NCBI RefSeq assembly: GCF_000009905.1
Contig: NC_006177.1
Coordinates: 2,914,001 to 2,978,000, forward strand
DNA from: Symbiobacterium thermophilum IAM 14863
GTDB lineage: Bacteria; Bacillota; Sulfobacillia; Symbiobacteriales; Symbiobacteriaceae
Length of the DNA stretch: 64,000 nucleotides
Direction of reading: 5' to 3'
Below the pieces are notes generated by a model. It was not told the DNA's origin. It saw only the letters and a program-made list of their open reading frames with translations, and did not search any database. Made by a program: the position numbers and the translations under genes. This document shows, one piece after another, positions 6,868 through 48,129 of the stretch (positions are counted from its first letter, which is position 1; each line of letters opens with the position of its first letter).

Positions 6868-8667
6868 TCACTCCCCCTCCCACTGCCCCCGATACATCCT
6901 CGCATACCTCCCCCCCAGGGCGAGCAACTCCGCGTGCCGCCCCTGCTCCACCACCTGTCCGTCCTCGATGTAGTAGATCCGGTCCGCGGACCGAATCGTG
7001 GACAGCCGGTGAGCGATGACGAACGCCGTCCGGCCCCGGAGCAGGGTCTGCAGGGCCTCCTGGATCACCGCCTCCGTGTGCGTGTCGATGTTCGACGTCG
7101 CCTCGTCCAGGATCAGCACCGCCGGGTCGGCGCACAAGGCCCGGGCGAAAGCGATCAGCTGCCGCTGACCCACCGACAACTTCGCCCCCCGCTCGTGCAC
7201 CTCCGTGTCGTACCCCTTCTCCAGCCGCACGATGAAGTCGTGGGCGCCCACCGCGCGGGCGGCGGCCTCCACCTCCTCGTCGGTGGCGTCAGGCCGGCCA
7301 TAGCGGATGTTGTCCCGGATCGTGCCCGAGAACAGGAAGGTGTCCTGCAGCACGATGCCCAGCTGCGACCGCCAGGACCGCTGCGTCACGGTGCTGAGAT
7401 CCACCCCGTCCACCAGCACCTGCCCCTCCTGCGGCTCGTAGAACCGGGCGAGCAGGTTGATGACCGACGACTTCCCTGCGCCGGTCGGCCCCACCAGGGC
7501 GATGGTCTCCCCCGGCTCCGCCCGCAGATTGATCCCCTTCAGCACCACCTGGCCCGGCTCGTACCCGAACACCACGTCCCGGAACTCCACCCGGCCGGCG
7601 ACCCGGGGCAGGTCGCGGGCGCCGGGCCGGTCCACGATCTCCGGCTGCTGATCCAGCAGCTCGGCGACCCGCTCGGCCGAGACCACCGCTGCCTGAAAGA
7701 CGTTGAACACCTGCGACAGGTCGCGGATGGGCTGAAAGAACCGGTTCAGGTAGAGGATGAAGGCCGCGACCTGGCCCACGGTCACGTCCGCGGTGCCGCC
7801 CCGGAGCAGGATGCCGCCGTACCAGAGCACCAGCGTCACGCCGAAGGCCGACACCACCTCAATCGAGGGCATCATCGTCGCCCAGACCCGCACGGCCCCC
7901 AGGTTGGCCTGCCGCAGCCGCTCGTTGATGCCGTCGAACTGCGCCTGGTTGCGGGCCTCCCGCACGTACGCCTGCGTGACCCGGATGCCGGCGATGGCCT
8001 CCGCCAGGTGGGCGTTCATGTCCGCCGCCCGCCGGCGCTGGGCCATGAAGGCATCCCGCATCCAGCCCCGGAAAAGCCGCAGCACCAGCAGCAGGGTCGG
8101 GATGGTGATGAAGGAGACCAGGGCCAGCCGCCAGTTCATCCAGAGCATCGTGCCCATGATGGTGACCAGCACCATAGAGTCGGCGAACAGGCTCACCAGG
8201 CCCGAGGAGACCAGCTGGTTGATCGCGTCCACGTCGGACATCAGCCGGGACATGATGCGTCCGGTGGCCATGGAGTCGAAGAACCGGAAGGAGAGCCGCT
8301 GCAGGTGGCGGAACATCCGGTCCCGCAGATCGTAGATGATGGACTGGCCCACGTAGGAGACGATGTACGTCTGCCCGTAACTGGACCACCAGTTGAGCAG
8401 GGCGGTCGCCAGGAAGGCCAGGGCCACCAGGTCGAGTCCCGCGGGGTCGCGCTCGGCGACGAAGCGGTCGATCGCCACCTGCGTGAGGTACGGACCTACC
8501 AGCCCGGTGAGGGCGGTGGCCACCATGAGCAGGACGCCCGCGGCCAGCTTGGGCACGTACGGGCGGATCAGGGTGCCGAGCAGCCGGTAGATCCGGGGAT
8601 CCACCTGGCTCAGCTTCACGTCGTAGTCGTCGAGCCGGAAGGCGCCGGGGCCGCCGCGCATCGCCAC
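6868..8667 (-). CDS. ABC exporter half-transporter, subunit 2 (permease fused to ATPase)
   Basis: A 599-residue type IV ABC exporter half: six membrane helices in the first 330 residues, then a nucleotide-binding domain. Walker A is GPTGAGKSS, the signature is LSVGQRQ (a variant of LSGGQ), Walker B is VLILDEATSNID, and the H-loop follows (FVIAHRLSTI). It begins with a GTG directly after the TAG stop of the upstream exporter half, with GGAGG inside that gene, so the two are co-translated and almost certainly form a heterodimer (BmrCD/LmrCD-like). The substrate is unknown; drugs, lipids or peptides are typical. The ATG at 8661 is an alternative start. Confidence 0.92.
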   Translation of the reverse strand: MAMRGGPGAFRLDDYDVKLSQVDPRIYRLLGTLIRPYVPKLAAGVLLMVATALTGLVGPYLTQVAIDRFVAERDPAGLDLVALAFLATALLNWWSSYGQTYIVSYVGQSIIYDLRDRMFRHLQRLSFRFFDSMATGRIMSRLMSDVDAINQLVSSGLVSLFADSMVLVTIMGTMLWMNWRLALVSFITIPTLLLVLRLFRGWMRDAFMAQRRRAADMNAHLAEAIAGIRVTQAYVREARNQAQFDGINERLRQANLGAVRVWATMMPSIEVVSAFGVTLVLWYGGILLRGGTADVTVGQVAAFILYLNRFFQPIRDLSQVFNVFQAAVVSAERVAELLDQQPEIVDRPGARDLPRVAGRVEFRDVVFGYEPGQVVLKGINLRAEPGETIALVGPTGAGKSSVINLLARFYEPQEGQVLVDGVDLSTVTQRSWRSQLGIVLQDTFLFSGTIRDNIRYGRPDATDEEVEAAARAVGAHDFIVRLEKGYDTEVHERGAKLSVGQRQLIAFARALCADPAVLILDEATSNIDTHTEAVIQEALQTLLRGRTAFVIAHRLSTIRSADRIYYIEDGQVVEQGRHAELLALGGRYARMYRGQWEGE

Positions 8668-10479
8668 CTAGACCACCTCCTCGACGGGCCGGAGCTGAAG
8701 TTCGTAGATCCGCCGGTAGAGCCCGTCCCGCCGGATGAGCTCCTCATGGGTGCCTCGGGCGGCGATACGGCCGTCCTCCAGCACCAGCACCAGGTCGGCT
8801 TTCATGACCGTGGAGAGGCGCGAGGCGATGATGAAGGTGGTCCGGCCGCTCATCAGCCGGTCCAGGGCCTTCTGGATGTGACGCTCCGTGGCCACGTCCA
8901 CCGCGGAGGTGGACTCGTCCAGGAGGAGGATCGGGGCGTCGGTGAGCAGGGCCCGGGCGATGGCGATGCGCTGCTTCTGTCCGCCGGAGAGCCCCACGCC
9001 CCGCTCGCCCACCACCGTGTCGTAGCCCTGGGGCAGGCTCAGGATGAAGTCGTGGATCTGCGCCGCCCGGGCCGCCGCCTCGATCTCCTCCTGGGTGGCG
9101 TCGGGCCGGCCGTAGGCGATGTTCTCCCGGAGCGTGGCCGAGAAGAGGAAGGTCTCCTGCGGCACGATCGCGATCTGCCGCCGGAGCGACGCAAGCGTCA
9201 CGTCCCGCACGTCGACGCCGTCGATCAGCACCCGCCCCGCGGTGGGATCGTAGAAGCGGGGGATCAGGTGGAGCAGGGTGGACTTGCCGGAGCCGGTGAG
9301 CCCCAGCACCGCCACCTTCATGCCGGGGGCGACGTCGAGGTGGATGTCCTGCAGCACCGCCTCGCCGCCGGGGTAGCGGAAGGAGACGTCCTCGAAGGTG
9401 ACCCGCCCGGCGACGCGGCGGGTGCCGTCGCCTCCGGCCGGATCCGCCCCATCCGGCGCAGCCGCCGTCGTGCCCTGCTCCGCCACCACCGCCTCCAAGT
9501 CCCTGGCACCCGGCCGGTCGGCGACCTCCACGGGCGTATCCAGCAGGGCGTAGATCCGCTGCAGGCTCGCGGCGGCACGGGTGAAATGGGAGATCGCCAT
9601 TCCCAGCATCCGCACCGGGCCGGCCAGCTGGGTCACGTAGGCGTTGAAGGCAACCAGCGTGCCCACCGAGATGGCCCCGGTCATCGCCCGGCGGCCGCCG
9701 TACCAGAGCACCGCGACCGCGCCGACGGCGGTGAGGAAGTTCATGTAGTTGGTCCAGAAGGCGCTGACCCGGATCGCCCGCAGGTTCGCCGCCTGGAAGG
9801 CGTCGTTGGCGGTCCGGAACCGGGCGATCTCCCCCTCCTCCCGGGCGAAGGCCTTGACCACCCGCACGCCGGCGATGTTCTCCTGCAGTGAGGCCGAAAG
9901 CTCCGCCGTCCGGGCCTGGACGTCGCTCCAGGCGGCCCGCGATCCCGCCTGGAATCGGGCGATGGCGTGGACCAGGAGCGGCAGGAAGAGCAGCGACACG
10001 ATGGCCAGCCGCCAGTCCATGAGGAACATGGCGACCACCACCGCGACGATGGTGCCCAGGTGCGTCAGCCCATTGACCAGAGCCATGCCGGCGGCCATCC
10101 GCACCGCGTCGACGTCGGCCGTCACCCGGGACATCAGCTCGCCGGTCTGCGCCCGGTCGTAGAAGGCCCAGGAAAGCCGCTGCAGGTGGCTGTAGACCTG
10201 CGCCCGCAACTGGGCGACGACCCGGGTGGAGACGATCTCCATCGTGTATCGCTGGCCGAAGCGCAGCCCGCCCTGCACCACGGCCACGGCGATCACGGCC
10301 AGGGCCCCGGGCACCAGATACTGCCACTCGCCGTTCTCCAGGACCAGGTCGGTGACGAACCGGATGATCTGCGGCTGCGCCGTGCCCAGCAACGAAACCA
10401 GCGCGATCTGGGTCAGGCTGAGCACGACGAGCGGCAGCCCCGGTCGGTACAGGGGCCAGAGCCGCTTCAGGATCTGCAT
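8668..10479 (-). CDS. ABC exporter half-transporter, subunit 1 (permease fused to ATPase)
   Basis: A 603-residue half-transporter, partner of the gene that follows it. It has six membrane helices, then a linker rich in alanine, glycine and proline (about 330-360) that is longer than usual, then the ATPase domain with GLTGSGKST, the signature LSGGQKQ and ILLLDESTSAVD. The ATG start follows GAGGTGAGC by seven bases. A well-formed promoter and three CACCTA repeats lie upstream, so expression is probably controlled by a repressor or activator not encoded next to it. The canonical signature here and the variant LSVGQ in the partner suggest unequal ATP sites, common in heterodimers. Confidence 0.92.
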   Translation of the reverse strand: MQILKRLWPLYRPGLPLVVLSLTQIALVSLLGTAQPQIIRFVTDLVLENGEWQYLVPGALAVIAVAVVQGGLRFGQRYTMEIVSTRVVAQLRAQVYSHLQRLSWAFYDRAQTGELMSRVTADVDAVRMAAGMALVNGLTHLGTIVAVVVAMFLMDWRLAIVSLLFLPLLVHAIARFQAGSRAAWSDVQARTAELSASLQENIAGVRVVKAFAREEGEIARFRTANDAFQAANLRAIRVSAFWTNYMNFLTAVGAVAVLWYGGRRAMTGAISVGTLVAFNAYVTQLAGPVRMLGMAISHFTRAAASLQRIYALLDTPVEVADRPGARDLEAVVAEQGTTAAAPDGADPAGGDGTRRVAGRVTFEDVSFRYPGGEAVLQDIHLDVAPGMKVAVLGLTGSGKSTLLHLIPRFYDPTAGRVLIDGVDVRDVTLASLRRQIAIVPQETFLFSATLRENIAYGRPDATQEEIEAAARAAQIHDFILSLPQGYDTVVGERGVGLSGGQKQRIAIARALLTDAPILLLDESTSAVDVATERHIQKALDRLMSGRTTFIIASRLSTVMKADLVLVLEDGRIAARGTHEELIRRDGLYRRIYELQLRPVEEVV

Positions 10480-10509
10480 GGGCCGCTCACCTCAAATAGG
10501 GGTTGAATA

Positions 10510-10549
10510 CACCTAGGAGAAACTATCACCTAAGGTTGAGTGCCACCTA
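10510..10549. promoter_or_regulatory. Three CACCTA repeats at exact 17-bp spacing
   Basis: CACCTA (TAGGTG on the coding strand) occurs at 10510, 10527 and 10544. The repeats lie between the predicted transcription start of the ABC exporter operon and its ATG. Regular spacing suggests binding of a regulator in tandem, or an RNA-level repeat; the function is inferred. Confidence 0.45.
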
Positions 10550-10563
10550 CTCTGCACAGTCTT

Positions 10564-10593
10564 AGTATAGCCCCCTGGGAGAATGCTGGGCAA
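10564..10593 (-). promoter_or_regulatory. Sigma-A-type promoter for the ABC exporter pair
   Basis: On the minus strand, TTGCCC and TATACT are separated by 18 bases, about 85 bases upstream of the first exporter ATG. The repeats with TAGGTG lie just downstream of the expected start point. Confidence 0.5.
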
Positions 10594-10733
10594 TATGAAT
10601 AACACACACAGCTGAATGTTGCGTAGATGAAGTGCCCCGCAAGGGAGTCCACGACCAGTCCTTGGCACATTGGCCAGCCGATCGGCACCCACGATGCGTT
10701 CAGGTATCGTCTGTCCCCGGCACGTCCCTCAGG

Positions 10734-10762
10734 TTGCATGGACATCGTGATCGTGGTATCAT
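10734..10762 (+). promoter_or_regulatory. Sigma-A-type promoter for the FMN riboswitch/ribU transcript
   Basis: TTGCAT and TATCAT are separated by exactly 17 bases and end 18 bases before the start of the riboswitch, which is the expected arrangement. Confidence 0.65.
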
Positions 10763-10779
10763 ACGAACCAAAGAGCGCC

Positions 10780-10945
10780 TTCAGGGCAGGGTGAGGCGGC
10801 ACTGCCGCCAATTCCCGACCGGCGGTGATGCTCCCCGCGGGGCGGAGGAGACGAGCGCCGCGAGCCCCGTGCGGCCTCAGGGCGGCACGGGTGCAGACTC
10901 CGGTGAGATCCCGGGGCCGACGGTACAGTCCGGATGGGAGAAGGC
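10780..10945 (+). ncRNA. FMN riboswitch (RFN element)
   Basis: The conserved RFN blocks are readable in order: TTCAGGGCAGGGTG at the start, AATTCCCGACCGGCGGTGAT in the middle, a GC-rich variable stem (CGCCGCGAGCCCCGTGCGG), GGTGCAGACTCCGGTGAGA, and the closing ACAGTCCGGATGGGAGAA. It binds flavin mononucleotide. Here it is followed by a terminator hairpin and the riboflavin transporter gene, so FMN should switch off ribU by premature termination. Confidence 0.93.
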
Positions 10946-11001
10946 GAGAGAGGCAGCCCCGCGCGCGCGGGGAGGCTCTTTCTTGCTGTGCCCGCAACCC
11001 A

Positions 11002-11033
11002 CACCCCGGAAGGCCTCCGGGGTGTTCTTGTTT
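11002..11033 (+). terminator. Intrinsic terminator of the FMN riboswitch
   Basis: CACCCCGGA and TCCGGGGTG pair across five bases and are followed by TTCTTGTTT. It lies between the aptamer and ribU, the place of the expression platform. Confidence 0.75.
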
Positions 11034-11094
11034 GCCCCGGGGCGGGGGCGGGTTGTGGCCCTCCAGGCGCACATCAAGAAGGAGTGGATGGGAG

Positions 11095-11670
11095 ATGCGC
11101 AACGAACGACTGCACCGGCTGGTCATGATCGGCATGCTGGGCGCCCTGGCCTTCCTGCTCATGTTCTTCGGCGAGATCTACGTACCGCCTTTCGCCGAGT
11201 TCCTGCGCTACGACCCGGGCGACATCCCGGCGATCGTGGCCACGTACACGCTGGGGCCGGCAGCCGGTGTAGCCATTCAGGGCATCAAGGTCGGCCTGTT
11301 CATCCTGTCCGGCAAGGGCAGCACGGGCTGGATCGGCGGACTGGCCAACTTCACGGCCGGCTCGGCCCTGGTCATTGCCGCGGGGGTCTCGCACCGGCTG
11401 TTTGATCGGGCGGGCCTGAAGCACTGGATCTGGACCTTCCTCTCCGCGGTCATCGGCACGGTGATCATGGCGGCCATCCTGATCCCTGCGAACGCGCTCT
11501 TCATCTACCCGCTGTGGGGCATGCAGGGCACCGCAGCCTGGGTCGGCGCGCTAACGCTGTCGACCCCGTTCAACCTGTTCAAGGGCATGCTCTCCACCAG
11601 CATCAGCCTGGCCTTCTACCGGCGGCTGGAGCCCTTCCTGCTCGGCCGTGCGGCGGATCGGGTGGCATAA
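11095..11670 (+). CDS. ribU: Riboflavin ECF transporter S component RibU
   Basis: A 191-residue membrane protein with about five or six hydrophobic segments. It is the substrate-binding S component of an energy-coupling-factor transporter that imports riboflavin together with the shared EcfAA'T module, not present in this window. Family features include the early GALAFLLMFF helix, the cytoplasmic YDPGDIPAI segment and the short loops with KGMLSTSIS near the end. The ATG is chosen because AAGAAGGAG lies ten bases before it; upstream in-frame codons run through the riboswitch. Regulation by the FMN riboswitch supports the assignment. The truncated group II intron begins about 20 bases after its stop. 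Confidence 0.9.
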   Translation: MRNERLHRLVMIGMLGALAFLLMFFGEIYVPPFAEFLRYDPGDIPAIVATYTLGPAAGVAIQGIKVGLFILSGKGSTGWIGGLANFTAGSALVIAAGVSHRLFDRAGLKHWIWTFLSAVIGTVIMAAILIPANALFIYPLWGMQGTAAWVGALTLSTPFNLFKGMLSTSISLAFYRRLEPFLLGRAADRVA

Positions 11671-11688
11671 CACAACAGTGGATGCGAT

Positions 11689-13008
11689 CGATCGAGTAGG
11701 AGGGGGCGGCTAGCCCCCGTCCTCTCACACCACCGGACATGCGGGTCCGCATCCGGCGGTTCGCCAGGATTGACGAGTCGCTTCATAACATTCGGTCAGG
11801 CTTATCAGCCCCTGGGCACGCCAGTAGGCGTCGCCCAGGGCGCTGTTTAGTGGGCCACCTGCCATCCGCCACGGGCCTTTGCGGCTGTTGGCGAGTTGGT
11901 GGACTACCCATTCGGGCAAACCGAGGGCGCGCAACTCCCGAAAGCGCGTGCGTACACGCTTCCACTGCTTCCATACGCATGCTCGCAGCCGACGCTTCAG
12001 CCATCCTTCGAGTCTTTCAAAGGCTGACCTGGCATCGGAGAGCGCATAGTACCCAACCCAGCCCCGCAAGTAAGCATTCAGGCGCCGGATTCGGTCCTCC
12101 ATGCTCTGGCTGCGGTTGCGGTCCGTCAGCGTGCGGAGCTTGTCCTTCACGCGCTTCAGGCTCTTCGGGGCCAGCCGGATGCGCACTCCCCGGTGCTTGT
12201 AGAAGCTAAACCCGAGGAACTGCCGCTTCCACGGCCGGTCCACTGCGCTCTTCTCCTCGTTGACCTTCAGCCGTAACCGCTCCTGCAGGAAGTGGCGCAC
12301 GCTCCTGTAGACCCGTTCTCCCGCCCGCTTGCTGCGGACGTAGATGTTGCAGTCATCGGCGTACCGGACAAAGTGGTGGCCACGGCGCTCCAGCTCCTTG
12401 TCGAGGTCATCCAGCAGGATGTTCGCCAGCAGCGGACTCAGCGGACCGCCCTGCGGCGTCCCTTCCTCCGTCGCCACGACTACCCCGTTCAGCATGACCC
12501 CGGCCTGTAAGTACCGCCGGATCAGCCGCAGCACACGCTTATCCGTTACCCGCCGCGCCACGCGGGCCATCAGCACGTCGTGGTTGACCCGGTCGAAGAA
12601 CTTCTCCAGGTCCATGTCCACGACCCAGTCGTACCCTTCCTCCACGTACTGACGTGCCTTCCTGACCGCATCATGACCCCGCCGCCCCGGCCGAAAGCCG
12701 TAGCTGGATTCGGAGAATGTCGGGTCAAAGATCGGCGTCAGTACTTGCAGGAGTGCCTGCTGGATCAGGCGGTCCATCACGGTGGGAATACCCAACATCC
12801 GCTTGCCGCCGCCCGGTTTCGGGATTTCGACCCGGCGGACTGGCTGCGGTCTGTAGGTCCCCCGGAGCAGTTCCTCACGGATGCGCTCCCACTCCGAGCG
12901 GATCTGGTCCCGCAGCCGTTCGGTGGGGACACCGTCCTCGCCTGGGGCGCCTCCGTTCCGCTCCACCCGTTTCAGGGCGGCCAGCATGTTCTCCCTGGCC
13001 ACCACCTG
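11689..13008 (-). mobile_element. 5'-truncated class C group II intron (copy 1)
   Basis: From the shared 3' end (on the plus strand CGATCGAGTAGG) to 13008 the sequence is nearly identical to the intact intron at 20412-22293, including domains V and VI (hairpin GCCGGATGCGGACCCGCATG region) and the maturase gene. At 13009 identity stops abruptly, just two codons after the maturase start. All 5' ribozyme domains are therefore missing and the copy cannot splice itself. Confidence 0.85.
11725..13008 (-). pseudogene. ltrA: Group II intron reverse transcriptase/maturase lacking its start
   Basis: The frame matches the intact maturase of copy 2 from residue 3 (QVVARENMLAALKRVERNGG) to the end, with the reverse transcriptase catalytic motif VRYADDCN and the maturase X domain (LRGWVGYYALSDARSAF). 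The native ATG and ribosome binding site were lost at the junction at 13009. The open frame continues upstream into foreign sequence, giving a chimeric N-terminus. A protein could still be made from the internal ATG at residue 9. If made, it might act in trans on other copies; this is inference. Confidence 0.8.
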
Positions 13009-13193
13009 GTGCTGCCGGTGGGATCGACGAGCAGACGCATGCGCCGGACCCGGAAGTCGTTGCCAAGCCCGTGACAAGGCGATTCACGGCGGGCGAGAAG
13101 GCCCGGATTCTAGCAGAGGCTGATCAGTGTCGTCGTGGCGAGTTGGGGGCACTGTGTCGGCGGGAAGGGATCTACTGGTCCACACTCCGCACC
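13009..13193 (+). pseudogene. Fragment of an IS3-family orfA-like transposase
   Basis: Plus-strand codons read VTRRFTAGEKARILAEADQC, then GELGALCRREGIYWSTL, which matches the N-terminal helix-turn-helix of IS3-type OrfA proteins. The fragment starts at the point where the truncated intron ends and stops where the 75-bp array begins. No inverted repeat or orfB is present, so only a scrap of the element remains. It proves that this junction was built by more than one event. Confidence 0.65.
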
Positions 13194-14215
13194 TCAGGTC
13201 CTGCGCGTCAGCCCCCTCCCCGCCCCGACTCACGCGCAGAATCTGAACCAGCCGGCCCGGACCTACCTCAGATTCTGCGCGTCTGCCCCCTCCCCACCGC
13301 TGGCTCACGCGCAGAATCTGAACCGGCCAGCCCGCACCAACCTCAGATTCTGCGCGTCAGCCCCCTCCTCACCCCAAGCGCTCGCGCAGAATCTGAACCA
13401 GCCGGCCCGCACCAACCTCAGATTCTGCGCGTCTCCCCCCTCCCCACCGCTGGCTCACGCGCAGAATTTGAACCGGCCAGCCCGGGCCAACCTCAGATTC
13501 TGCGCGTCAGCCCCCTACCCACCCCTGACTCACGCGCAGAATCTGTACCGGCAGCCCTCGGCAACCTCAGGTCCTGCGCGTCGGCCCCCTCCCCGCCCCA
13601 ACTCACGCGCAGAATCTGAACCAGCCGGCCCGCACCAACCTCAGATTCTGCGCGTCAGCCCGCTCCTCACCCCAAGCGCTCGCGCAGAATCTGAACCAGC
13701 CGGCCCGCACCAACCTCAGATTCTGCGCGTCAGCCCCCTCCCCGCCCCAGCCCACGCGCAGAATCTGAACCAGCCGGCCCGCACCAACCTCACATTCTGC
13801 GCGTCTGCCCCCTCCCCACCGCTGGCTCACGCGCAGAATCTGTACCGGCCAGCCCTCGGCAACCTCAGGTCTTGCGCGTCAGCCCCCTCCCCGCCCCAAC
13901 TCACGCGCAGAATCTGAACCAGCCGGCCCGGACCTACCTCAGATTCTGCGCGTCTGCCCCCTCCCCACCGCTGGCTCACGCGCAGAATTTGAACCGGCCA
14001 GCCCGCACCAACCTCAGATTCTGCGCGTCGTCCCCCTCCCCACCCCTGACTCACGCGCAGAATTTGAACCGGCCTCCCCAGGCCAACCTCAGATTTTGCG
14101 CGTCTGCCCCCTCCTCACCCCAGGCGCACGCGCAGAATTTGAACCAGCCAGCCCGCACCTGCCTCCGATTCTGCGCGTCATCCCCCTCCTCACCCCAGCT
14201 CACACGCTGAACCTG
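13194..14215 (+). repeat. Array 1: about 14 tandem 75-bp palindromic units
   Basis: Units start with CACGCGCAGAATCTGAACC at 13231, 13306, 13381, 13456, 13531, 13604, 13679, 13753, 13828, 13902, 13977, 14052 and 14127, with a degenerate unit at 14201. The period is 75 bases with occasional 73-74. Each unit has a left arm (ACGCGCAGAATCTGA), a loop of about 22 bases rich in GCC, a right arm that is its exact complement (TCAGATTCTGCGCGT), and a C-rich linker such as CAGCCCCCTCCCCACC. Frames are open on both strands because the period is a multiple of three, but 73-74-base units break every frame, so coding is unlikely. Confidence 0.92.
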
Positions 14216-14434
14216 AACCTGTCATCCCCGTCAACCAGGCATCTGTCACCTCGGCCGTCTCCCCGAAGCCGGCATGCGCTCACCACCCGTGCGCAGGGCC
14301 CGGGCAACGCTCTTCACACATGCTACAACCATACTGCTAGTACCCGCGCAGGATCTGTAACGAAATGGGAATCAATTCCTGATCCTGGCAGGACTCTGCG
14401 TCCGAATAGCGAACTAATATTCGGGTGATGTGAT
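14216..14434. other. Spacer between array 1 and the nuclease-like gene
   Basis: About 220 bases with no gene. It includes CGCGCAGGATCTGTAACG near 14353, a decayed echo of the array arm, and presumably the promoter of the next gene, for which no strong match was found. Confidence 0.4.
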
Positions 14435-15475
14435 GTGACGGTCCATTTCCTCCCCAGCCAGGTAAAGGTGCCGCGCCACATCCTCCTGCACGACCAGTTG
14501 ACTCCGGCGGCGAAAGTCCTGTGGGCAGGGCTTCAGCTGCGCCCCAAGAACCAAGAACACCTCGCGCAACTCTGCGGCCTCTCCCAGGCCAGCATTAAAC
14601 CGGGGCAAACCCAACTCGAACGGTTCTCCCTGCTCAACCCCGGCCCGTTCCCCAGGGCCGACTGGGCGTTCCTCCCGGTTGACCTTCTCCGCACCAAGCC
14701 CGTCCATCCTCAGGCGAAGATCACTTACGCGGCCATCCAGCTGCTGCCCACGTTTGCAGACGGCGTCGCCGAGGCGACCACTGAACAGCTGACGCAACTG
14801 ACCGGCCGGCATCCGGCAACCGTGCGGAGGGCGCTGCGAAGCCTCGTCGACGCGGGTTGGCTCCAAGTTCGCCGATCCGGGAGAACGAACGTTCTACAGA
14901 TCCTGGTTCTCAACCCCCAACTCGAAGCCCAGAAGAGCATGATCGCCCAGATCAACCGCAGGCTGGAAAGGGCGCCCTACCTGGGTGAAGCGATCATGCG
15001 CGAGTGGCTCACCTTGACGGTCGACCGGGACAACTTCGAGGACGACGCTTCACCCGGCTTTCTCGTCAACCCCTACACCGGCGAGGAGTTGAAGATCGAC
15101 CGCCTCTACCCGCCGGACGTGGGGTTCGAGTTCAACGGCCCTCAGCACTACGGCCCGACGGACCTCTATCCCAACGAAGAGCAGGCGCGCAGGCAGATGG
15201 GGCGCGACCTCATCAAGCAGGCCATCTGCACGCAACGGGGGATTCTCCTGGTGACCATTCACGCCGAGGACCTCTCGCTGGAAGGCATGCTGAAACGGCT
15301 CCCGGACCGGCTGCCGCTGCGCAGCCTCGACCACAAGGAGCTCGTCATCGCCCATCTGCAGTCCGTCAGCAGGGCGTACCGGCAGAAGGTCCCGCTCCCT
15401 CCACCTGTGCCCAAACAGGCGTGCCCACCCGGGTACGCGACGGGCGGGAACGCGCAACAGTACGCGTCCCGGTAA
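14435..15475 (+). CDS. Winged-helix protein with a PD-(D/E)XK endonuclease-like C-terminal domain
   Basis: A 346-residue protein starting at GTG with a weak ribosome binding site. Residues 1-65 look like a replication-initiator type helix-turn-helix (KVPRHILLHDQLTPAAKVLW). Residues 95-150 form a second winged helix (EQLTQLTGRHPATVRRALRS, followed by AGWLQVRRSG). Residues 195-300 resemble Vsr/DUF559-like nucleases: KIDRLYPPDVGFEFNGPQHY carries the D...ExN core, followed by RDLIKQAICTQRGILLVTI. The family was not recognised by name, so both DNA binding and cleavage are inferred from the fold pattern. It sits between two tandem repeat blocks and codes on the same strand as array 1. Its tail (KVPLPPPVPKQACPPGY) is disordered. 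Confidence 0.7.
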   Translation: MTVHFLPSQVKVPRHILLHDQLTPAAKVLWAGLQLRPKNQEHLAQLCGLSQASIKPGQTQLERFSLLNPGPFPRADWAFLPVDLLRTKPVHPQAKITYAAIQLLPTFADGVAEATTEQLTQLTGRHPATVRRALRSLVDAGWLQVRRSGRTNVLQILVLNPQLEAQKSMIAQINRRLERAPYLGEAIMREWLTLTVDRDNFEDDASPGFLVNPYTGEELKIDRLYPPDVGFEFNGPQHYGPTDLYPNEEQARRQMGRDLIKQAICTQRGILLVTIHAEDLSLEGMLKRLPDRLPLRSLDHKELVIAHLQSVSRAYRQKVPLPPPVPKQACPPGYATGGNAQQYASR

Positions 15476-15519
15476 GTCCAGTCCGACGAGCCGCCCGGCC
15501 GTTCGCCGGCTACAAAATC

Positions 15520-15760
15520 ACTGCCCAACAGGTCCCTCCGGCCGTCCCAGGCGACACGTTCCCAGCCCCAATAGGCCCCCCGGCCGTCCCAGGCGACACG
15601 TTCCCTGCCCCAACAGGCCCCTCCGGCCGTCCCAGGCGACACGTTCCCTGCCCCAACAGGCCCCCCCTGGCCGTCCCAGGCTACATGATCCTTGCCCAAC
15701 AGGCCCCTCCGGCCGTCATAGGCAACACGTTCCCTGCCTCAACGGCCTCGCCAGCCTTTC
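15520..15760 (+). repeat. Five tandem repeats of 42-44 bp
   Basis: GCCGTCCCAGGCGACACGTT recurs at 15541, 15583 and 15626, with diverged copies at 15670 and 15712. Units are joined by a CCCCAACAGGCCCCTCCG-like linker. It starts about 45 bases after the nuclease-like gene. The antisense frame through it encodes 14-residue repeats but has no plausible start, so it is treated as a DNA repeat. Confidence 0.85.
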
Positions 15761-15780
15761 CTGTCGAGTGATCATAAGCA

Positions 15781-15807
15781 GCCCCCGGGGCCGGTGGCCC
15801 CGGGGGA
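15781..15807. terminator. Strong GC hairpin between convergent genes
   Basis: GCCCCCGGGGCC and GGCCCCGGGGG pair across a three-base loop. It lies between the repeat block and the 3' end of liaR and could end transcription from either side, although neither flank has a long T run. Confidence 0.5.
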
Positions 15808-15889
15808 CTACACATATGACAGAACAAGGCCAGAACGATGAGGGGATGGCGGCCGGCAACAGGGAGCGGCCGCACGGTTCCACCCAGGA

Positions 15890-16522
15890 CTACACCAACT
15901 TGTTCTGCAGCGCGTAAATCGCCAGCTGCGTCCGGTCCTGGAGCTGCAGCTTCTCCAGCAGGTGCGAAACGTGCGTCTTCACCGTCCGCTCCCCGATGAA
16001 GAGCCGCTCCCCGATCTCCTTGTTGGAGAGCCCCTGGGCGATCAGCTTCAGGACCTCCAGCTCCCGGGGCGTGATCTCCTCCACCCCCGCCGAGGCCTTG
16101 GGCGGTGCGGTGAGCTCCTGCATCATCCGCTGGGCGGCGACCGGGTGCAGCGTAGGCTGGCCCGAAACGGCCTTCCGGATGGTCTCCGCCAGCTCATCGG
16201 CCGCAATGTCCTTCAGCACGTAGGAGAGGGCGCCCGCCCGGATCGCCGGGACGACCAGCTCGTCGTCGGGCATCGACGTCAGGACGATCACCCGCACGCC
16301 CGGATGGGCCTCCAGACACCGCTTCGTCCCCTCGATGCCGTCCACCCGGGGCATGATCAGGTCCATCAGGATCACGTCCGGCTTCAGCTCCGCCGTCAGC
16401 CGCGCGGCCTCTTCGCCGTTCTCCGCCTCCCCCACCACCACGATGTCCGGCTCGGTGGAGAGGTAGATCTTCAGCCCTTCCCGCACCATCTTGTGGTCAT
16501 CCACGATCAACAGCCGAATCAC
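15890..16522 (-). CDS. liaR: NarL/LuxR-family response regulator LiaR
   Basis: A 210-residue DNA-binding response regulator. The receiver domain (1-125) has the acid pocket VDDH, the phosphoacceptor D in ILMDLIMPRVDG and the conserved K in SYVLKDIAADEL. The C-terminal LuxR-type helix-turn-helix (145-210) has ITPRELEVLKLIAQGLSNKE and RTVKTHVSHLLEKL. The GTG start is preferred over the upstream ATG at 16549 because AGGAGGT precedes it by seven bases. It is last in a liaF-liaS-liaR operon, which senses envelope stress from cell-wall antibiotics in Firmicutes. Its likely targets, including its own operon, are inferred from the family. Confidence 0.9.
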   Translation of the reverse strand: MIRLLIVDDHKMVREGLKIYLSTEPDIVVVGEAENGEEAARLTAELKPDVILMDLIMPRVDGIEGTKRCLEAHPGVRVIVLTSMPDDELVVPAIRAGALSYVLKDIAADELAETIRKAVSGQPTLHPVAAQRMMQELTAPPKASAGVEEITPRELEVLKLIAQGLSNKEIGERLFIGERTVKTHVSHLLEKLQLQDRTQLAIYALQNKLV

Positions 16523-16696
16523 CCGGGCCACCTCCTGATTGTCCCGCACCTACTGCCGCGACACTACCACTGTTAACGCCTGGGCGCCCGGCGCACGCCG
16601 CCCCGCTGCGCATGCGGCGCCCGCTCACCCTGCGCCTCTTCGACGCCCGCCCGGCCCCCTGCGCCGGGTAGGCTGCCTGTCCGCACCGCCGCCACC

Positions 16697-17803
16697 CTAT
16701 GGACCGCCGCCCTCGTCCCTCGGCGGCGAAGGCGGCAGGACCGCCAGCACCTCGGTGCCTTCCCCGGGGGCGCTGCGCACCTGAATGCTCCCGCCGAGGG
16801 CGGCCATGCGCTCGTGCATCCCCGCCAGGCCCACGGCCGTTGGCCGGATGCCGGCCCGGCGGTCGAATCCGACGCCGTCGTCGGCCACGAGCAACCGGAT
16901 CTCGCCCTCGCCCGCCCGTTCCAGCACGACCCGGATCCGACTCGCCCGGGCGTGCTTGGCGACGTTGTTCAGGGCCTCCTGCGCCACCCGGAAGAGCGCC
17001 TCGCCCTCAGCGCCCCGGAGCCGCAGGGCCTGGTCGATCTCGTTCTCGACGGCCCAGTTCTCCCGCTCCGCCACCGTCTTCACGTACTCCGCCAGCGCCG
17101 GCCCCAGGCCGTGCTGCTCCAGCGTCGTCGGACGGAGCTGCAGGATCAGCTCCCGGATCTGGCTGTGGGCCGTGCGGGCCAATTCCTCCAGGTTGGCCAG
17201 CTCCGTCACGAGCTGCGGTTCAACCCCGGCGCCATCCCCGCCGGCTGCGGCACCGCTCGCGGCGCCGACCCGCTTCCGGACCGCCGCGGCCCGGAGCGAG
17301 AGCACGAAGAGCTGCTGGTTCACCGTGTCGTGCAGGTCCCGTGCGATGCGGGCCCGTTCCTCCAGGGCGGCGCCCCGCCCCGCCTCCTCGGCCAGCAGCC
17401 GGTTCTGCTCCGCCAGCCGGGAGAGCTGGCCCACCGCTTGCTCCAGGTAGGCGGCCATCTCGTTGAGCTGCATCTCCAGCTCCCCGATCTCGTCGGCGTC
17501 ACTCACCGGCAGCCGGGCCGAGAGATCGCCCCGGCGGATGCGTGCGGCGAGGTCCCCGGCGTTCCACAGCCGACGCTTGATGCCCCTGGCCAGCTGGAAG
17601 CTCCATGCGGCGGCGGCGAGCCCGCCCGCGACGCCGGCGGCGACGCCAGCCACCAGCGCCTCGTTCCATCCAAAGCCCTGCTGGAGGGCGACCCAGACGC
17701 CGAAGACCGCCAGACCGCTGGCCAGCAGGCCGGCCGCGGCGGTAACCGCCACCAGCTGCCACTGCAGCCCCAGCGTGCGTCGTTCTTCCATGCGCCCTTC
17801 CAT
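16697..17803 (-). CDS. liaS: Sensor histidine kinase LiaS
   Basis: A 368-residue membrane histidine kinase with two N-terminal membrane helices (about 15-70), a HAMP domain (IRRGDLSARLPVSDADEIGE), the HisKA_3 dimerisation domain with the phosphorylated H in RIARDLHDTVNQQLF, and an HATPase domain with the N box (EALNNVAKHARAS) and G box (VADDGVGFD). HisKA_3 kinases pair with NarL/LuxR regulators, matching the downstream gene. It begins one base after the LiaF stop region. The response regulator follows after about 170 bases, a gap with no other gene. A second ATG at 17791 is an alternative start. Confidence 0.9.
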   Translation of the reverse strand: MEGRMEERRTLGLQWQLVAVTAAAGLLASGLAVFGVWVALQQGFGWNEALVAGVAAGVAGGLAAAAWSFQLARGIKRRLWNAGDLAARIRRGDLSARLPVSDADEIGELEMQLNEMAAYLEQAVGQLSRLAEQNRLLAEEAGRGAALEERARIARDLHDTVNQQLFVLSLRAAAVRKRVGAASGAAAGGDGAGVEPQLVTELANLEELARTAHSQIRELILQLRPTTLEQHGLGPALAEYVKTVAERENWAVENEIDQALRLRGAEGEALFRVAQEALNNVAKHARASRIRVVLERAGEGEIRLLVADDGVGFDRRAGIRPTAVGLAGMHERMAALGGSIQVRSAPGEGTEVLAVLPPSPPRDEGGGP

Positions 17804-17804
17804 G

Positions 17805-18590
17805 TCAGAACACCCGGAACTGGGTGGTCGGCACCCGCTCGATGGTGATGTCGCCGACCCCGACGTGCACGTCGATGATCAGTTCCGCATCCGCGCCCGG
17901 CACGATCTCCTCCCGCTCCAGCGACACCGCGCCGACCCCGTCGCGCTCCTCGCCCAGGACGTCCAGGCTCCCGGTGATCGTCGCTTCCGCCCGGGCCCGC
18001 ACTGAGACGTTGTCGGGCACCCGCACCTTCGTGTCGCCGACGAACTTGGCGATCTCGATTCGGTGCACCCCGGGGGAGATGGCGGCCGTGGTCAGATCGA
18101 GCCGGAGGTCGCCGACGAAGGTCTGCAGGTGCAGATCCTCCTCCAGCACCCAGGGCTCGTTGCCCATCTTCAGGTCCGAAACGAAGTGGGTGCCGGACCG
18201 GACGGGCTTGTAGCTGCCGGACCGGGAGGACTGGCCGGACGAGCGCGGCGTGGTGAACACGTAGACGCCCACCCCCCGGCCGAACAGCATCGAGATGCCC
18301 AGGGCGATGAGCAGGAGCGGCCATCCCATGCGGAGGACGTCCCCGCCCGTGATGGTGGTGACGCCGGCCTGAGCCAGGATGTTGAACAGGCCGATGGCGG
18401 CGATCCAGAGGCCCACACCCAGGGTGAACACCCTCGGACGGCTCCGGCGCAGCCCGCTGCCGGCGATCGACAGCCCGATCAGGAGGAGGGCGGCCGCCCC
18501 GAACGAGATGCCGCGAATCCACCCCATGGTCTGCAGCAAATAGAGCGCACCGACGATGACCAACAGCAGTCCGATCGTATTCCGGCGCAC
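17805..18590 (-). CDS. liaF: LiaF-like inhibitor of the LiaRS system
   Basis: A 261-residue membrane protein. Four hydrophobic segments fill residues 5-110 (NTIGLLLVIVGALYLLQTMG and onward), followed by a soluble beta-rich domain of the cell-wall-active-antibiotics response/DUF2154 type (FVGDLRLDLTTAAISPGVHR, GVGDITIERVPTTQFRVF). LiaF holds the kinase LiaS off in the absence of envelope stress. The GTG start lies six bases after AGGGAGGGG; the upstream ATG at 18623 is less likely. Gene order F-S-R is as in other Firmicutes. Confidence 0.85.
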   Translation of the reverse strand: MRRNTIGLLLVIVGALYLLQTMGWIRGISFGAAALLLIGLSIAGSGLRRSRPRVFTLGVGLWIAAIGLFNILAQAGVTTITGGDVLRMGWPLLLIALGISMLFGRGVGVYVFTTPRSSGQSSRSGSYKPVRSGTHFVSDLKMGNEPWVLEEDLHLQTFVGDLRLDLTTAAISPGVHRIEIAKFVGDTKVRVPDNVSVRARAEATITGSLDVLGEERDGVGAVSLEREEIVPGADAELIIDVHVGVGDITIERVPTTQFRVF

Positions 18591-18670
18591 CCGAACCCCT
18601 CCCTTCGCGAAGCCCGATTCCATCCTACCTGAAGGACGCCCGGCGGTACAGGTACGCGGGTGCGAAAAGG

Positions 18671-18694
18671 GGCATCGTACCTAGGTACGATGCC
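18671..18694 (-). terminator. Perfect 24-bp palindrome after murE
   Basis: GGCATCGTACCT is followed directly by its reverse complement, AGGTACGATGCC. On the minus strand it is followed by CCTTTT, so it may end the murE transcript. A loop-free palindrome of this length could equally be an operator before liaF, which starts about 80 bases further on. Confidence 0.55.
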
Positions 18695-18770
18695 CTGAAC
18701 CATCCTCCAGGCCATGCACCCGTGGGACGTTCCACGGCCGGGCAACCCCTGAACGCGGCGGGCGGCTCTG

Positions 18771-20276
18771 CTACGCCCGCACGCCCCGGGCCTCCTCCCG
18801 GGCGCGGTCCCGCAGCGCGTCCACCGCCTCCACGACGTCGCCCCGCCAGGTGGTCGGGTGCTGCACCTCCAGCTCCGTCTCCTGCCCCTTGCCGGTGATG
18901 AGCACAATGTCGCCGGTGCGGGCCATGCGGATCGCCTCCCGGATGGCCTCCACCCGGTCCTCGATCAGGTGGATCTCCACCTCGTCCCGGGCCACGCCCG
19001 AGGCGATCTGCCGCGCGATCTCCATCGCGTCCTCGGTGCGGGGATCCTCCTCCGTCAGGACCAGCACGTCGCAGTACTCGCCGGCGATCCGGCCCATGTC
19101 GGGCCGCTTCGACGGATCCCGCTGGCCGGCCGAACCGAAGACCATGATCACCCGGGAGCCCGGCTCCTTGATCCGGGCCACGTCGGAGAGCAGCTTCTCG
19201 AAGCCGTCCGGCGTGTGGGCGTAATCCACCACCACCGTGAAGTCCTGTCCTTCGTCGATGCGCTCGAACCGGCCCGGCGCGCCCTTGGCCGTGCCGAGCG
19301 CCGCGACGGCGTCCTGCAGCGAGAAGCCCAGGGCCAGACCGGCCCCCACCGCGGCCATGGCGTTGGACACATTGTAGGTGCCGAAGAGGTGCGGGGCCTC
19401 CACGTCGGCCTCGCCCACCGGCGTGATGAGCCGGTAGCGGGCGCCCGGGCCGGTGAGGTGCACGTCCTCGGCCCGGATATCCGCCCCCTCACTGAAGCCG
19501 TATGTAAGGGTGCGCACTCCGGCGGGGATCTCCTCCGCCAACCGGCGGCCGTAGGGGTCGTCGATGTTCACCACCGCGGCCGCGCCCGGCTGCAGCCCGC
19601 GGAAGAGCCGGGCCTTGGCGGCGTAGTAGCCCTCCATGTCGCCGTGGTAATCCAGGTGCTCGTGGGTGAGGTTGGTGAAGACGGCGACGTCGAACCGGCA
19701 GTGGTCCGTGCGCCGCTGCTCCAGCGCGTGGCTGGAGACCTCCATCACCGCGCCCCAGGCCCCGCGCTGCAGCATCGCAGCCAGCAGCCGGTGAATCGTC
19801 TGGGGCTCGGGCGTGGTGTACCCCGACTTGCCCTCCAGCACCTCCCGGCCCAGCATCATGCCTGCCGTGCCGATCACCCCCATCGCCTTGCCGGCCGTGC
19901 GGGCGATGGCCTCCACCAGGAAGGCCGTCGTGGTCTTGCCGTTGGTTCCCGTGACCCCCACCATCCGGAGCGCGCGGGAGGGATGTCCGTAGAAGCGGTC
20001 GGCCAGGGCGCTGAGGGCCAGCCGGGCGTCGGGCACCACCGCCGCGCCGATGCCGGTCGGAACCGCCCAGGGGCGCTGCGTGACTACCGCCACCGCCCCG
20101 CGCCGGAGGGCATCCGGGATGAACTGGTGCGCATCCACGTGCGCGCCCGGAATGCACACGAACAGGTCGCCGGGCCTCACCGCGCGGGAATCGGCGGCGA
20201 TGCCGGTCACGGTGACGTCGGGAGCCTCCAGCACCTGCACGGGGTCCAGGGCCGACAGCAAATCGACCAACTTCAA
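18771..20276 (-). CDS. murE: UDP-N-acetylmuramyl-tripeptide synthetase MurE
   Basis: A 501-residue Mur ligase that adds the third residue of the stem peptide to UDP-MurNAc-L-Ala-D-Glu in the cytoplasm. The N-terminal UDP-binding domain is followed by the ATP loop GVTGTNGKTTTAFLV (about 110), the central motif MEVSSHALEQRR and the C-terminal domain VDYAHTPDGFEKLL. The specificity loop reads EEDPRTED, where meso-diaminopimelate enzymes usually have DNPRxEDP; the arginine is kept, so diaminopimelate remains likely. The TTG start is chosen because GGAGGG lies seven bases before it; an in-frame ATG at 20408 lacks a site and would add an unrelated 44 residues. It stands alone, outside a division/cell-wall cluster. 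Confidence 0.88.
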   Translation of the reverse strand: MKLVDLLSALDPVQVLEAPDVTVTGIAADSRAVRPGDLFVCIPGAHVDAHQFIPDALRRGAVAVVTQRPWAVPTGIGAAVVPDARLALSALADRFYGHPSRALRMVGVTGTNGKTTTAFLVEAIARTAGKAMGVIGTAGMMLGREVLEGKSGYTTPEPQTIHRLLAAMLQRGAWGAVMEVSSHALEQRRTDHCRFDVAVFTNLTHEHLDYHGDMEGYYAAKARLFRGLQPGAAAVVNIDDPYGRRLAEEIPAGVRTLTYGFSEGADIRAEDVHLTGPGARYRLITPVGEADVEAPHLFGTYNVSNAMAAVGAGLALGFSLQDAVAALGTAKGAPGRFERIDEGQDFTVVVDYAHTPDGFEKLLSDVARIKEPGSRVIMVFGSAGQRDPSKRPDMGRIAGEYCDVLVLTEEDPRTEDAMEIARQIASGVARDEVEIHLIEDRVEAIREAIRMARTGDIVLITGKGQETELEVQHPTTWRGDVVEAVDALRDRAREEARGVRA

Positions 20277-20411
20277 CGGTAGTCCCTCCTGCACATTAAA
20301 GCCCTGATTATCTAAGCGTCTTTCGACGTGCGGCCCGCGCATCCTGTCGGGCACGGCCGACAAAATGGGGGACGTATCGGGATTGTATCCAGCGGAAACA
20401 TAAAACATACC

Positions 20412-22293: not shown

Positions 22294-22297
22294 CGAA

Positions 22298-47024: not shown

Positions 47025-48071
47025 GCCCGCGCAGAACCTGAACTCGCCTCCAACGCCCGACCCCAGATTCTGCGCGCCGGCCACCTCCCCGCCCCCCGCT
47101 CACGCGCAAAACCTGAACCTACCGCCCACGCCCAACCACAGATTCTGCGCGCCAGCCCCCTGCTCGCCCCCCGTTCACGCGCAAAACCTGAACCAGCCAT
47201 CCACACCCGACTTCAGATTCTGCGCGCCGGCCCCCTGCTCGCCCCCCGCTCACGCGCAAAACCTGAACCTGCCGCCCACGCCCAACCACAGATTGTGCGC
47301 ACCAGCCACCTCCCCACCCCCCGCTCACGCGCAAAACCTGAACTCGCTGCCCACACCCGATCTCAGATTCTGCGCGCCAACCCCCTGCTCGCCCCCCGTT
47401 CACGCGCAGAACCTGAACTCGCTGCCCACACCCGACCTCAGATTCTGCGCGCCGGCCACCTGCTCGCCCCCCGTTCACGCGCAAAACCTGAACTCCCCTC
47501 CAACGCCCGACCTCAGATTCTGCGCGCCAGCCCCCTGCCCATCCCACGCTCACGCGCAAAACTTGAACTCGCCTCCCACGCCCGATCTCAGATTCTGCGC
47601 GCCGGCCACCTGCCCGCCCCCCGTTCACGCGCAAAACCTGAACTCGCCTCCCACACCCGACCCCAGATTCTGCGCGCCAGCCCCCTGCCCGCCCCCGCTC
47701 ACGCGCAAAACCTGAACTCGCCTCCAACGCCCGACCCCAGATTCTGCGCGCCAGCCCCCTGCCCGCCCCCGCTCACGCGCAAAACCTGAACTTGCCGCCC
47801 ACAACCAACCCCAGATTGTGCGCGGCGGCCCCCTCCCCGCCCCCCGCTCACGCGCAGAACCTGAACTCGCCTCCCACACCCGACCCCAGATTCTGCGCGC
47901 CGGCCCCCTCCCCGACCACGTTCACGCGCAAAACCTGAACCTGCCGCCCACGTCCGACTTCAGATTCTGCGCGCCAATCCCCTCCTCACCCCTCGTTCAC
48001 GCGCACAACTTGAACCTGCCGCCCACGACCAACCCCAGACTGCGCGCGCCAGCCCCCTCCCCGCCCCTGCA
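47025..48071 (+). repeat. Array 2: about 14 tandem 75-bp units related to array 1
   Basis: Units starting CACGCGCAAAACCTGAAC begin at 47101, 47176, 47251, 47326, 47401, 47476, 47551, 47626, 47700, 47774, 47849, 47923 and 47998, after a first unit near 47025. The period is 75 with some 74. The right arm is CCAGATTCTGCGCGCC. Compared with array 1 the left arm has changed (AAAACC for AGAATC), so the palindrome is weaker. Loops are short variants of TCGCCTCCAACGCCCGA. The C-rich linkers are of the same kind as in array 1. Frames break at 74-base units. Confidence 0.92.
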
Positions 48072-48076
48072 CGCGC

Positions 48077-48124
48077 GCCCGTGTTGGGCTTTCACCAACA
48101 AGTCAGCGCCCATTGCGGGCGCAC
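48077..48124 (-). mobile_element. Stub of a class C group II intron 5' end
   Basis: On the minus strand the sequence starts GTGCGCCCGCAATGGGCGCT and continues GACTTGTTGGTGAAAG, matching the first 48 bases of the intact intron. It then runs directly into array 2. It begins five bases (TGTTG) after the stem of the terminator at 48130-48164, the same placement as the intact copy, so it marks a true insertion whose rest has been lost or replaced. Confidence 0.8.
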
Positions 48125-48129
48125 CAACA

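Follow-up and report, generated by a model that had tools for sequence, protein, structure and literature searches.

The window analyzed here, a 64,000-nucleotide stretch of the Symbiobacterium thermophilum IAM 14863 genome (NC_006177.1, positions 2,914,001 to 2,978,000), carries a tandem array of paired inverted sites, A1, and just downstream of it a gene for a protein predicted to join two winged helices to a nuclease-like domain. The best explanation, which we consider probable, is that the array is the DNA target of this protein: the paired sites (dyads) would be its landing places, and its nuclease would drive the change and spread of the arrays. The distance within a dyad is almost invariant, and its arms show no pairing covariation. 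In the genus, genes of the same family have arrays upstream far more often than control genes do, and at a syntenic locus gene and array persist while the motif turns over. The features are as follows.

13191..14219, no strand assigned: A1, the gene-adjacent ("home") array, about 13.8 units of 73 to 75 bp
13233..13281, no strand assigned: example of a complete dyad, 49 bp, the proposed functional unit
14220..14434, plus strand: spacer from A1 to the gene start, without a sigma-70-like promoter by consensus scan
14435..15475, plus strand: gene with GTG start, 216 bp downstream of A1, for a 346-residue protein with predicted winged helices at about residues 6-164 and a nuclease-like part at about 165-320
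14711..14863, plus strand: second winged helix, Pfam HTH_36, residues 93-143 (E 2.4e-7)
14921..15409, plus strand: nuclease-like domain, residues 163-325 as modelled alone

Paired inverted sites at a fixed distance

Tandem Repeats Finder (TRF) detected about 13.8 copies of period 75 in A1 (score 1305; the alternative period 149 scored 1380), in agreement with the first-pass annotation, which had described about 14 tandem units of period 75. Each unit consists of two inverted copies of CGCGCARAAYCTG(MAC), a 13- to 16-bp site that is often MAC-extended. In A1, 23 bp separate the 13-bp sites and the linkers are 25 to 26 bp long; one unit has a loop that is 1 base shorter. The arms had been described as perfect 15-bp inverted repeats. 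They are indeed present, but in some units they are imperfect, with site positions 7 (A/G) and 10 (C/T) variable in both arms. Since units of 73 and 74 bp and the 149-bp higher-order repeats disrupt any reading frame, the earlier view that a repeat protein is unlikely holds.

Spacing was determined in a set of 219 sites with up to 3 mismatches. The inner distance, between neighbors in plus-then-minus order, was 36 bp in 99 of 101 pairs (35 and 30 bp in the other two). The outer distance, in minus-then-plus order, was 38 or 39 bp in 81 of 97 cases and 28 bp in six; the rest measured 9 bp (nine cases) and 93 bp (one case). Ten more neighboring sites had the same orientation, and these, together with the ten outlying outer distances, were taken as spurious or missed sites. 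The arm-to-arm distance is constant, and the linker shifts by 1 base or by 10 to 11. An array with short linkers has a period of 64 bp, compared to 74 to 75 bp elsewhere, so that roughly one helical turn (10 to 11 bp) separates the linker classes. A dimer that contacts both inverted sites would be expected to hold them at an exact distance and to leave the linkers freer.

Among 100 dyads, left-arm positions 1-6, 8, 9, and 11-13 are nearly fixed and their right-arm partners largely so, while positions 7 and 10 are free. Between arrays, the mean identity (55 array pairs) was 0.885 for the arms and 0.358 for loop columns 17-33, which bears out the earlier claim that the arms are far better conserved than the loops. 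Because the latter value is slightly above that of shuffled loop columns (0.315; standard deviation, 0.009), some common descent of the loops remains. Within arrays, loop identity was 0.725. Therefore, the arrays have been homogenized internally and, apart from the sites and the distance between them, have diverged almost throughout.

The first-pass annotation had proposed selection on a hairpin or on a protein-bound inverted site. Pairing was analyzed in 35 of the 100 dyads, picked by hand to cover all 11 places at which the site forms dyads in the genome. Paired cells made up 92.1% of the observed and 93.1% of the shuffled arms, with 497 of 500 shuffles as high or higher. In a separate test, the bases at positions 7 and 10 of one arm were independent of those in the other arm (Fisher P 0.66 and 0.28). 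Because paired cells are fewer than in the shuffles, while a selected hairpin would give the opposite, an RNA hairpin under selection is not supported. As far as these alignments indicate, the arms are conserved as a site sequence, beyond complementarity alone, and a protein-bound DNA site appears to fit their independent variation better than an RNA hairpin. Of the two earlier alternatives, the site is thus supported, by the lack of covariation and by the fixed arm distance, and the hairpin is not.

An RNA explanation would have the array transcribed and its hairpins act as RNA. Three single units, folded as the earlier annotation had suggested, do form stable hairpins on either strand (z -2.35 to -6.65); 0, 0, 0, 1, 8, and 0 of 200 shuffles folded as well, a result expected of any inverted repeat. 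In five arrays, most cells that depart from Watson-Crick pairing are G-U when one of the strands is read (L002, 8 of 8; L004, 15 of 15; A2, 25 of 29; L005, 14 of 18; L009, 12 of 16). In A2 and L004 it is the strand of the flanking genes (called with a simple script), whereas in L005, L002, and L009 it is the opposite one. Furthermore, a consensus scan of 13000-14700 revealed no sigma-70-like promoter, and there was no terminator consensus match at A1. With no stem covariation and no Rfam family at gathering score, a structured RNA was rejected, and we consider action of the array as RNA to be highly improbable.

Fixed spacing was likewise observed in two further repeat families. In the comparisons, G000 is the genome of the window, G001 and G002 belong to the same genus, and G003 and G004 to the same family. 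The second repeat family, AAGTGRAAATYCG and its variants in G002, occurs in G000 and G002 as arrays with a period of about 115, among them one 152 bp from the C83 gene of G002. Its inner distance was 25 bp in 47 of 47 pairs (eleven fetched stretches), and its outer distance was 89 to 91 bp in 34 of 37 cases below 120 bp, two of 125 bp in L166 lying beyond this limit. In G001, one inexact match was found, which equals the control level, and there is no close homolog of the second-family gene among the six matches to its protein family; the best G001 homolog among the matches listed scored 134 bits, compared to 501 for the G002 homolog. In the third repeat family, located beside the gene at 1204838, the inner distance was 29 bp in 6 of 6 pairs and the outer distance 56 to 57 bp. 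The rule common to the families is two inverted sites, an exact distance, and freer linkers.

The neighboring gene and its predicted protein

In the AlphaFold2 model of the whole protein (mean predicted local distance difference test [pLDDT], 92.6), residues 6-164 can be superposed on the RepE54 tandem winged helices (Z 8.8; root mean square deviation, 4.0; about 150 residues), and residues 78-162 align with Rep N-domains (Z 10.5 over 84 residues). HTH_36 is matched by 19 of 33 aligned family members, and the PHROGs matches at the helix region are replication-initiation families. Pfam gave no match to the C-terminal half of the window protein, where PHROG_9084, a "homing endonuclease" family, was matched at residues 231-307 (E 4.2e-7). 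The nuclease domain modelled alone (pLDDT 92.4) matched the structures of I-Bth0305I (Z 7.9, 94 residues) and Vsr (Z 7.5, 107 residues), followed by mitoribosome and FASTKD4 rows and by TnsA (Z 6.4). Matches of the protein in a viral library include homing endonucleases and DUF2726/DUF559 proteins; a profile of the nuclease against PDB sequences gave nothing at E 1. Based on these modest scores, the predicted fold is that of two replication-initiator-like winged helices and a Vsr/I-Bth0305I-like nuclease domain. The label "unknown type" in the first-pass annotation can be narrowed to an array beside a winged-helix/nuclease gene.

In 31 aligned sequences, residues G184, D222, E232, F233, G235, P236, Q237, H238, T242, D258, K261, and L280 (whole-protein numbering) are invariant; two relatives outside this set have A at position 236. 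D222, E232, F233, G235, Q237, H238, D258, and K261 are invariant both in a set of 11 sequences and in one of 33, the latter comprising the window protein and 32 of 49 loci (35 examined, 33 with open frames, L137 excluded). Invariance of D222, E232, H238, D258, and K261 in the 33 sequences suggests an active enzyme. This speaks against the main rival explanation, a domesticated regulator. According to it, the protein would only bind DNA, the arrays would serve the host (in autoregulation, chromosome organization, or titration) and change by unequal recombination, and the nuclease would not be involved in their spread. The fixed dyad spacing and the periods of 74 to 75 and 64 bp, about one helical turn apart, are in line with such a regulator.

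Downstream of the gene, direct repeats of 42 to 43 bp (about 5 copies, 15517-15747) begin 42 bp past the stop codon; inverted sites were not seen in them by eye.

Arrays in the genome and in the genus

The genome is a single contig of 3,566,135 bases. It was searched by pattern, as had been proposed for the arm in the first-pass annotation, and by BLAST, and the matching stretches were fetched. This yielded eleven places: A1, a second array in the window (A2), and nine more. The places beyond A1 and the gene beside it had escaped the first-pass annotation. By the strict pattern, they hold 14, 14, 12, 11, 9, 9, 9, 7, 7, 6, and 2 dyads; the place with two (L007) is hardly an array. The 16-bp site with at most one mismatch has 139 matches in the genome and, among the matches listed, all but two inexact ones lie within arrays. 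In four relatives, the same site gave 6, 4, 0, and 5 matches, and the dyad with up to 2 mismatches was detected in 0 of 60 relatives. The exact dyad was found neither in viral contigs nor in genome contigs (where own-genome records may be excluded), and the arrays had no blastn match in plasmids and phages. The second array and the intron sequences at both arrays of the window are as follows.

47028..48070, no strand assigned: A2, solo array of 14 dyads of the same kind as A1, without an adjoining winged-helix/nuclease gene
48076..48125, minus strand: group II intron 5' end fragment, 50 bp, abutting A2
11691..13077, minus strand: group II intron copy without the 5' part, on the other side of A1, with a reverse transcriptase gene at 11725-13077

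Group II intron copies or fragments adjoin four of the eleven places (L002, L003, A1, and A2). A second intron copy in the window (20412-22294) has the 5' part and is 98.6% identical over 1315 bp to the copy beside A1; the intron 5' end at A2 adjoins a terminator-like hairpin. A transposon with shared flanks was rejected, since the long shared flanks are group II intron sequence only and the remaining pairs share 23 to 38 bases. We also rejected loops as guides copied from elsewhere: a comparison with 602 kb of own DNA outside the arrays gave 8 matches of 17 to 19 bases (E 0.002 to 0.032), taken as chance or lone arms.

The family of the gene beside A1 has 7 matches in G000, 6 in G001, and 7 in G002. 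A strong array, defined as a tandem array with a TRF score of 300 or more, is located within 550 bp upstream of 11 of these 20 genes (4 of 7, 3 of 6, and 4 of 7, respectively). By the same criterion, an array accompanies only 8 of 461 other called genes (G000, 4 of 277 over 400 kb; G001, 4 of 184 over 300 kb, three G001 pieces holding family genes being excluded). The Fisher P of 1.5e-12 overstates the significance of this difference, because orthologs, which are not independent, were counted separately. When arrays on either side within 800 bp were considered, 5 of 7 (G000), 5 of 6 (G001), and 4 of 7 (G002) family genes had one.

These counts bear on a neutral explanation, in which intergenic DNA fills with tandem minisatellites, and gene and array are adjacent since the same places tolerate both. 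Indeed, these genomes hold many unrelated arrays, and group II intron sequence is found at four of the eleven places. Moreover, the sbcC-addB and dnaE-imuB gaps contain repeats that differ between Symbiobacterium species, in a hot-spot-like manner (L005 6874-7630, L022 5004-5551, L004 6782-7683, L072, and L073). However, the excess of arrays at family genes over the controls is large, and arrays of the family lie upstream, whereas those of control genes are as frequent downstream (8) as upstream (8). Furthermore, the inner spacing is near-invariant in three families and two species, and one site is common to eleven places of otherwise different sequence. Neutral minisatellites are therefore a very unlikely explanation.

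Synteny connects the gene beside A1 with both sister species. Blocks of window 8001-20390 are syntenic with contig 8 of G001 on both sides of the gene, and blocks of window 14410-20400 with contig 3 of G002, which ends inside the array, so that only one side is comparable. At this locus, the gene has an array just upstream in all three species, and the motif and period differ: 75 bp with CGCGCARAAYCTG in the window, 126 bp with GGCRRAATGTGCA in G002, and 181 bp with the arm GTGGCTCATGGAGTT in G001. Identity of the window protein is 66.0% with the G002 protein and 67.5% with the paralog at 1204838, whose array has GGCGGAWTGTGCA. Among 14 genes with arrays, an inverted word (at most one mismatch) is common to 19 of 91 pairs, and the five most similar protein pairs all share a motif (hypergeometric P 2.5e-4).

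Gene-free arrays differ between the species as well. At four of four intergenic places examined (gene names read from translations), the array is absent from the sister species inspected. Between dnaE and imuB it is absent in G001 and G002; at pyc it is absent in G001, G002 not being alignable; and there is no array at the place orthologous to A2 in G001. Between sbcC and addB, G002 has about 40 bp, and G001 has a different, 151-bp repeat. This reads as gain of arrays in the lineage of the window; loss in the sister species may have occurred instead.

Such fast coming (or going) of arrays is a further point against a domesticated regulator. In its favor, the arrays of the 11 of 20 genes lie upstream, where an operator would be expected, and several family genes stand at matching places in sister species. 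In addition, nine of the eleven CGCGCA places fall within 1.02 Mb (G000 1.94-2.96 Mb; P 0.011 for a width picked from the data themselves). Taken together, we regard this rival as unlikely.

We infer that the protein of 14435-15475, as the natural candidate, is the likely cognate of the array. Several observations weigh against this view. At the protein level, the nuclease half scores best in PHROGs against a family of unknown function (E 6.4e-9), the structural Z values of the nuclease stay under 8, where the tool regards matches as common, and a Foldseek search by itself returned no PDB structure at E 0.001 with the two models. In the genus, no strong array is located within 550 bp upstream of 9 of the 20 family genes; that of T_C31 is downstream, U_C89 has no array up to 3.6 kb upstream, and gene 3136768 is 1.0 to 1.6 kb away from an array of the second family. 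Conversely, 10 of the 11 places have no winged-helix/nuclease gene nearby. A permutation test of motif sharing over all pairs gave a P of only 0.013, the sixth-ranked, ortholog-like pair S_1021842/U_C141 has no common motif, and AATGTGCAC is common to two distant groups that are 28 to 29% identical. Finally, because family genes sit at orthologous places, they do not look mobile now; the gene may have been mobile earlier. In nine solo-array stretches, tblastn revealed no gene remnant (no match below E 2).

Outside the genus, the gene-array link is weak, which likewise counts against this view. A strong array within 800 bp was found at 0 of 10 genes in G004 and 0 of 4 in G003, where several contigs end nearby. 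Among further loci, 3 of 36 have arrays (L136, L140, and L152), all downstream of the gene. These 36 were taken from 49 loci, leaving out seven G002/G004 contig duplicates and six weak partial matches; L119 and L120 among them are G003 contigs again. In Fermentithermobacillaceae, which are distant relatives, the arrays downstream of the winged-helix/nuclease gene contain GTGCAAAC...GTTGGCAC (L136 5215-5664 and L140 4975-5456).

Known systems and the proposed mechanism

In its mode of life, the system resembles REP-RAYT, by analogy. REP repeats co-evolve with and outnumber their gene (Nunvar 2010, PMC2817692). Like the REP/BIME/REPIN repeats and RAYTs portrayed there, the sites here are short and of alternating orientation, many copies are gene-free, a cognate gene lies beside some of them, and they are species-specific. 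Here too, site and adjacent enzyme change together, within the limits of the permutation test and of the sixth protein pair given above, and cognate repeats are found elsewhere. In contrast to RAYTs, the enzyme is a predicted winged-helix/Vsr-like nuclease unrelated to Y1; the Y1 transposase PF01797 was found in 0 of 3 genomes (G000-G002), while the positive control detected it in 5 of 14 known genomes. The single site is not palindromic, and CGCGCARAAYCTG is without GTAG or CGTC, the tags by which REP sites are named in PMC3733652. Furthermore, unlike single REPs, the copies stand mostly in long tandem arrays, with few exceptions.

Iterons are repeated sites just upstream of a plasmid rep gene, which encodes a RepE/RepA-type initiator. 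Similarly, the repeats here lie just upstream of a gene for a predicted tandem-winged-helix protein whose model aligns with RepE54 and Rep N-domains. Unlike iterons, they are chromosomal, form inverted pairs, accompany a fused nuclease-like domain, and occur at ten more places without the gene. The predicted fold of that domain resembles, at modest scores, that of EDxHD/Vsr-like homing endonucleases such as I-Bth0305I; in contrast to these, no intron, intein, or phage gene was seen to enclose the gene here, and its proposed target is the repeat array beside it and elsewhere. S. thermophilum has three CRISPR loci, as recorded in PMC1924867, and regular short repeats are common to CRISPR and the arrays. 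CRISPR was nevertheless rejected, as in the first-pass annotation: the orientation alternates, and the "spacers" within an array are copies of each other, not unrelated sequences.

We would set the system apart as a new kind, since a defining feature of REP-RAYT, and likewise one of CRISPR, is missing here and, to our knowledge, no described kind has this combination of features. If repeats with a cognate enzyme are taken as one kind, it would belong there. A literature search, mostly at title level, found no account naming these repeats or linking such a gene to arrays; the original genome description may mention repeats.

If the array is the target of the 14435-15475 protein, each 49-bp dyad would be one landing place, with two protein subunits bound as a dimer to the two inverted sites at their fixed distance, and the linkers would merely set the spacing between landing places. 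A further probable role of the upstream array is control of the gene itself. If dyads were cut or nicked and the breaks repaired between units, arrays would lengthen, shorten, and homogenize, and the same cut-and-repair could occasionally seed gene-free copies at other intergenic places. Such nuclease-driven amplification and dispersal would explain both the arrays at new places and the motif turnover. As the protein changed, its site would change, and the motifs would diverge among paralogs and species.

More tentatively, we suggest a new type of element, in which an initiator-like protein fused to a Vsr-like homing-type nuclease would build, homogenize, and spread arrays of paired inverted sites of its own. 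It would have arisen independently of REP-RAYT, with paralogs that have their own sites, and the site would turn over fully between sister species while gene, place, and architecture persist. If this is true, RAYTs are not alone in maintaining populations of short inverted repeats in bacterial chromosomes; a second, unrelated enzyme class does so too. With several paralogs of different site per genome, and with sites replaced at orthologous loci, both protein-DNA co-evolution and the birth of satellite-like DNA in bacteria would be open to direct tests. Even if the binding part alone is true, the family would still offer a set of site-specific DNA-binding proteins whose target lists are already at hand.

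Other repeats were also noted in the fetched stretches. Several G001 arrays, with no family gene noticed alongside, share the direct motifs TTCTGTTCGTG and CTGTTGA (L034 15512-16070, L040 17284-17414 and 17709-18270, and C14 95.7-96.7 kb). Finally, L053 6100-6864 contains 6 near-identical 126-bp copies, each with a long GC-rich hairpin.
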